Shown here in pieces: positions 62,160 to 62,353 of a DNA stretch of 64,000 nt. Origin of the DNA: Geoalkalibacter subterraneus (GTDB lineage: Bacteria > Desulfobacterota > Desulfuromonadia > Desulfuromonadales > Geoalkalibacteraceae). The position numbers were made by a program, and so were the translations under genes. The notes under the pieces are model-generated. The model was given only the letters and a program-made list of their open reading frames with translations. It was not told where the DNA came from and did no database searches. Position 1 is the stretch's first letter. Each line of letters starts with the position of its first letter. Where the stretch lies: the NCBI RefSeq assembly GCF_000827125.1, contig NZ_CP010311.1:1240001-1304000 (forward strand), written 5' to 3'.

Positions 62160-62176
62160 TTGGCACGTTGAGTGCT
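62160..62176 (+). promoter_or_regulatory. Sigma-54 (-24/-12) promoter of glnK-amtB
   Basis: TTGGCACGTTGAGTGCT: the invariant GG and GC dinucleotides are 10 bases apart, as required, with the TGGCACG -24 element perfect. It lies about 180 bp before glnK. NtrC is encoded at 4672 in this window. No obvious NtrC dyad (TGCACCA-type) was found upstream in 62067-62160. Confidence 0.85.
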
Positions 62177-62203
62177 ATAAACCGGACAACCACGACAATC
62201 AAA

Positions 62204-62309
62204 CCTGGCGGGATGAAACAATGACGTTTCGGTGCCCGCAGGAAATAAGGGCAACGGCGCCTGTGTCTCTTCCATGAATTTCATGGAATGTGGATGCGGG
62301 CGTTTTTTT
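62204..62309 (+). promoter_or_regulatory. Tandem-hexaloop leader with overlapping terminator (ANTAR-type antiterminator) of glnK
   Basis: Hairpin P1: CCT-GCGGG (62204-62212) pairs with CCCGC-AGG (62235-62242), capped by GAAAC/GTTTC around the hexaloop AATGAC (62220-62225). Hairpin P2: GGGC (62249-62252) pairs with GCCT (62259-62262) around hexaloop AACGGC (62253-62258). Both loops have A at position 1 and G at position 4, the recognition rule for ANTAR RNA-binding regulators. P2 shares bases with the 5' side of a terminator (GGCGCC at 62256 and, via the perfect TTCCATGA/TCATGGAA stem, GGGCG at 62298), ending in TTTTTTT (62303-62309). Binding of a dimer would favour P2 and prevent termination. 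Confidence 0.75.
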
Positions 62310-62353
62310 ATTTACGGTCGAAAAATTCATCGGCTTACAAGGAGAAGACAGGC

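Follow-up and report, generated by a model that had tools for sequence, protein, structure and literature searches.

The leader of the glnK-amtB operon of Geoalkalibacter subterraneus is, with high confidence from comparative sequence analysis, a transcription attenuator of the ANTAR type placed behind a sigma-54 promoter. It is located close to the end of the window, i.e. the whole 64-kb stretch of DNA that was analysed. The following features were recognized in this region:

62160-62176, + strand: sigma-54 (-24/-12) promoter TTGGCACGTTGAGTGCT (sequence)
62204-62242, + strand: hairpin P1, six-base loop AATGAC (62220-62225), lower stem extended (fold; covariation over 26 leaders)
62249-62262, + strand: hairpin P2, the putative antiterminator hairpin, GGGC-AACGGC-GCCT (leader comparison; covariance-model match)
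62258-62309, + strand: predicted intrinsic terminator, stem at 62258-62302 followed by seven Ts at 62303-62309 (fold)
62354-62692, + strand: glnK, P-II protein of 112 amino acids (Pfam P-II)
62758-64000, + strand: amtB, ammonium transporter, continuing past the end of the window (Pfam Ammonium_transp)

Anatomy of the glnK-amtB leader

The promoter of glnK follows the sigma-54 rule, with the boxes TGGCAC and TGC at -24/-12. In TTGGCACGTTGAGTGCT the GG is found at 62162-62163 and the GC at 62174-62175, which gives the GG-N10-GC spacing, and transcription would be expected to start near 62187. The ribosome site of glnK (AGGAG) is present at 62340-62344. P1 is closed by the arms TGAAAC/GTTTCG and P2 by the arms GGGC/GCCT, which enclose the loop AACGGC at 62253-62258. 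Each hairpin has three or more pairs beneath a loop of six bases, as the rule for ANTAR targets requires, and A1 and G4 are present in both hexaloops. The distance from loop to loop is 27 nt, and 21-31 nt in the relatives in which both loops are clear. The 5' arm of the terminator begins at 62258 inside the loop of P2, and positions 62258-62262 are common to both structures, i.e. P2 and the terminator are mutually exclusive. An earlier note on this DNA had described a canonical -24/-12 promoter, two A1/G4 hexaloop hairpins and a seven-T terminator whose 5' arm overlaps the second hairpin; all of these were found back at the coordinates given here.

The minimum free energy fold of 62187-62312 consists of P1 and the terminator (-47.5 kcal/mol, z = -4.3), and none of 200 shuffled sequences was equally stable. 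P2 alone amounts to -4.9 kcal/mol, whereas the larger part of the terminator stem reaches -23.3 kcal/mol. This suggests that the terminator is the default structure and that P2 needs something that holds it. A generic terminator scanner made no call at the glnK leader, probably because the 45-nt stem is interrupted.

A single REC-ANTAR regulator is encoded elsewhere in the genome

The earlier note had also placed NtrB and NtrC in the window and no ANTAR gene. Both statements held: reading of the translated open reading frames located NtrB at 6142-7251 (-) and NtrC at 4672-6102 (-), about 55 kb from the glnK leader, and no ANTAR gene was found within the 64-kb window. A search of the genome (3.7 Mb, 2 contigs, 99.99% complete), a step that the note had proposed, revealed exactly one ANTAR domain (C1:3002818-3002976, - strand, 1.7 Mb from glnK). 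It is part of a REC-ANTAR response regulator of 203 amino acids, which aligns over its full length with EutV (6wsh/6ww6; E 9.9e-35 for 6wsh) and also with the putative antiterminator 1s8n. The phosphoacceptor aspartate is present. When the regulator was compared with the RNA-contacting residues known from the EutV structure (PMC8934654), the equivalents of Arg142, Lys149, Glu160 and Tyr164, which contact G4, and of the Met172 loop plug were found, and three other contacts differed (Arg168 to Gln, Asn173 to Asp and Arg177 to Ser). The four relatives of the regulator in the family have the identical letters at these three positions.

A covariance model trained on glnK leaders of the order indicated a single target in this genome, the glnK site itself, with the restriction that divergent targets may be missed by a glnK-trained model. 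The other matches in the genome (at most 22 bits) were taken as chance; no terminator was seen behind their second hairpin and several of them looked like coding sequence. A match to the nitrogenase family was not found in this genome.

The sensor kinase gene upstream of glnK is broken

A homologue of one sensor kinase gene is found directly upstream of glnK in 28 of 30 loci of the order, that of the window included. In relatives this gene is intact and encodes a GAF-PAS-HisKA-HATPase protein of 524-555 amino acids. In the window it is present in two parts:

60982-60997, + strand: sigma-54-type promoter TGGCACGGCTTATGCC, 5' of the kinase gene (pattern match)
61039-61323, + strand: 5' remnant of the sensor kinase gene, half of GAF followed by a change of frame
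61320-62066, + strand: 3' part of the sensor kinase gene, HisKA and HATPase, 248 amino acids, GTG start, PAS missing

The change of frame was read directly from the sequence at about 61270, and the GTG start of the 3' open reading frame at 61320 overlaps the stop of the remnant by 4 nt. Judged by the spacing of DNA matches, the two parts lie about 556-559 bases further apart in relatives. The comparison points to an out-of-frame deletion of about 557 nt that took half of GAF and all of PAS. As this genome is the only one of its genus in the comparison, the deletion may be fixed, recent or a fault of the assembly. The kinase gene is closely preceded by a 6S RNA at 60621-60801, which is encoded on the other strand (-) (Rfam RF00013, 85.6 bits).

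Since the kinase that looks cognate is broken, the switch may be stuck in this genome. The leader would then be intact and unresponsive, either as a relic or permanently on or off, a possibility that concerns the responsiveness of the element and not its identity. The deletion, which sets this genome apart from others of the family, the single target and the failure to find the nitrogenase family in the genome all speak in its favour. However, the leader has kept its loops, stems and terminator and the regulator its key residues. The HisKA-HATPase part remains an open reading frame, with no obvious sign of diverging faster than the regulator does, and another kinase, of which the genome has dozens, could feed the regulator. 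An unresponsive switch is considered the less probable state, although a serious one.

The same observations allow a more specific proposal, which is put forward tentatively and with slightly less confidence still. In this nitrogenase-less species the ANTAR switch would have been reduced to one target and deprived of its input from the sensor along with the GAF and PAS parts of the kinase, and antitermination of glnK-amtB would have been either fixed by the sensor-less fragment or taken over by another kinase. If true, this would provide a natural example of an RNA antiterminator that outlasted the rewiring of its signal.

The leader is conserved and covaries across the order

The identification of the leader as an ANTAR-type attenuator is carried by comparison with relatives. 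Thirty glnK loci of the same order were used, including the one in the window. A sigma-54 element was found 5' of glnK in 29 of the 30 leaders searched. A pair of ANNGNN hexaloops at the required spacing (strict rule, hairpins 27-37 nt apart) was present in 25 of the 30, which bears out the expectation of the earlier note that both hexaloops are conserved in this order. Nearly all leaders with the loop pair are situated behind a sigma-54 site, and several of the remaining ones have one strict loop and a degenerate second one. Of 29 leaders, an automatic procedure recognized pairing of the terminator over P2 in 28, and folding of a wider stretch revealed it in the remaining one.

In an alignment of 26 leaders the A and the G of loop 1 were among the invariant columns, and positions 1 and 4 are conserved in both loops among the relatives. 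The consensus of the order (C-AAnGnC-G, then GGC-AAnGRC-GCC) is tighter than that of the general ANTAR target. Cells of the helices were paired in 93.1% of cases; column shuffles gave 80.2% and slid controls 36-52%. The pairing percentages are biased upward because the alignment was built of segments selected by motif. The stronger part of this evidence is the number of double-sided changes in the helices, 39 observed vs 13 expected from shuffles. A leave-one-out covariance model, made from the 25 other sequences without the site of the window, gave this site 35.4 bits (E 1.1e-7 in 64 kb), and the runner-up in the window scored 9.1 bits.

Presence of the element is associated with an ANTAR gene

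In a survey of 98 genomes, an ANTAR gene was present in 81 and a match to the model (cut-off E 0.01) in 55. Matches were found in 53 of the 81 genomes with an ANTAR gene vs 2 of the 17 without (Fisher p 7e-5, uncorrected for shared ancestry). Many of the genomes without the gene seem to have one P-II gene only and may lack glnK-amtB altogether. The ANTAR gene is located 2-3.2 kb from glnK in 24 relatives and 10.6 kb away in a 25th. In a genome without an ANTAR gene (G063), the glnK leader (L015) keeps its sigma-54 site and has no hexaloops, terminator or T-run, whereas a congener (G079, leader L027) has the ANTAR gene and all parts of the leader. This pair is a correlated loss of ANTAR gene and attenuator and serves as a natural control.

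Two draft assemblies (G002 and G017) showed model matches upstream of glnK, and an ANTAR gene was not found in them. A gap in the assembly is possible, as is an attenuator that outlived its protein.

The glnK-trained model also recognized leaders of relatives in front of genes that, on reading of their translations, were named nifH (L134), nifB (L127) and draT-like (L128). A sigma-54-like site and a terminator accompany each of these three leaders. Further afield in the class (L142, L143, L144 and L146), the element and a sigma-54-like site were seen before genes for P-II or apparently exported proteins, which suggests that these are further targets of the ANTAR system.

Given that terminators do occur between genes and that an Rfam search of the glnK leader returned no matching family, the leader could be of another kind, such as a riboswitch, a processed leader or the plain terminator of the upstream kinase gene, in which the hexaloops are incidental. 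This is very improbable: the terminator is positioned downstream of the glnK promoter, positions 1 and 4 of the loops are conserved while the stems covary, the element goes together with an ANTAR gene, and no Rfam riboswitch matched. A hit to a betaproteobacterial toxic sRNA (0.019) was rejected, as it was below the gathering score and covered only the terminator.

The two-loop rule alone is satisfied by 1.0% of dinucleotide shuffles of this leader and by 1.05% over shuffles of all 30, so that a single leader would be weak evidence, but a chance resemblance to the loose ANTAR motif is refuted almost beyond doubt by the conservation in the order and the leave-one-out score.

Comparison with known ANTAR systems

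As in EutV-eut, NasR-nasF and AmiR-ami, two A1/G4 hexaloop hairpins are combined with an intrinsic terminator that overlaps the second one, and a REC-ANTAR partner is encoded in the genome. Unlike in the dual-hexaloop antiterminators described (PMC3369931; PMC8934654), a sigma-54 promoter is found in front of the leader and the ANTAR gene is not linked to it. The leaders predicted as ANTAR targets include those of P-II, ammonium-transporter and nitrogenase genes, among them a nif regulon in Pelobacter carbinolicus with three nif units (Ramesh et al., 2012; PMC3369931). Control of the NasT/NasS type likewise uses ANTAR antitermination for nitrogen genes. In that system the partner is NasS, which is released on sensing of nitrate or nitrite, whereas here a histidine kinase is the neighbour.

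A further system with similar parts is GnfK/GnfR of Geobacter sulfurreducens. Ueki and Lovley (2010, Nucleic Acids Res) are reported to have shown that this two-component system with an ANTAR regulator antiterminates nitrogen(-fixation) genes with sigma-54 promoters. The kinase gene gnfK (GSU0941) is a near neighbour of a P-II gene (GSU0939). A review on ANTAR RNA cites Ueki and Lovley 2010 and connects the ANTAR targets of Geobacter with nitrogen; gnfK and gnfR were confirmed as gene names (PMC7962754). The REC-ANTAR regulator and a kinase near a P-II gene are common to both. In contrast, the neighbouring kinase gene is truncated here, being intact in members of the family, and nitrogenase targets are absent here, the nifH and nifB leaders with the element being those of relatives. 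Orthology to GnfK/GnfR is proposed on gene order and domain content rather than on a tree. The general scheme is thus already known; what is new is the deletion in the kinase gene beside a leader that was kept, in a genome without nitrogenase.

Proposed mechanism and implications

In the mechanism that we propose, initiation would be set by sigma-54 and an enhancer-binding protein. NtrC, which is encoded in the window, may be this activator, although inspection by eye of the region upstream of the glnK promoter revealed no clear NtrC site. By default RNA polymerase would stop at 62303-62309. By analogy with EutV, the ANTAR regulator would be active when phosphorylated and dimeric, and in this form it would bind P1 and then P2 and keep P2 folded. 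The 5' arm of the terminator would then be blocked and transcription would proceed into glnK-amtB. It is plausible that two nitrogen signals meet in this way on one operon, as the earlier note had suggested, although the kinase expected to convey the second of them is broken here.

Ammonium uptake in much of the order thus probably passes two gates, sigma-54 at initiation and an ANTAR protein during elongation. The relatives with and without an ANTAR gene, together with one genome that kept the RNA switch despite its broken sensor, form a comparative test set for this control.
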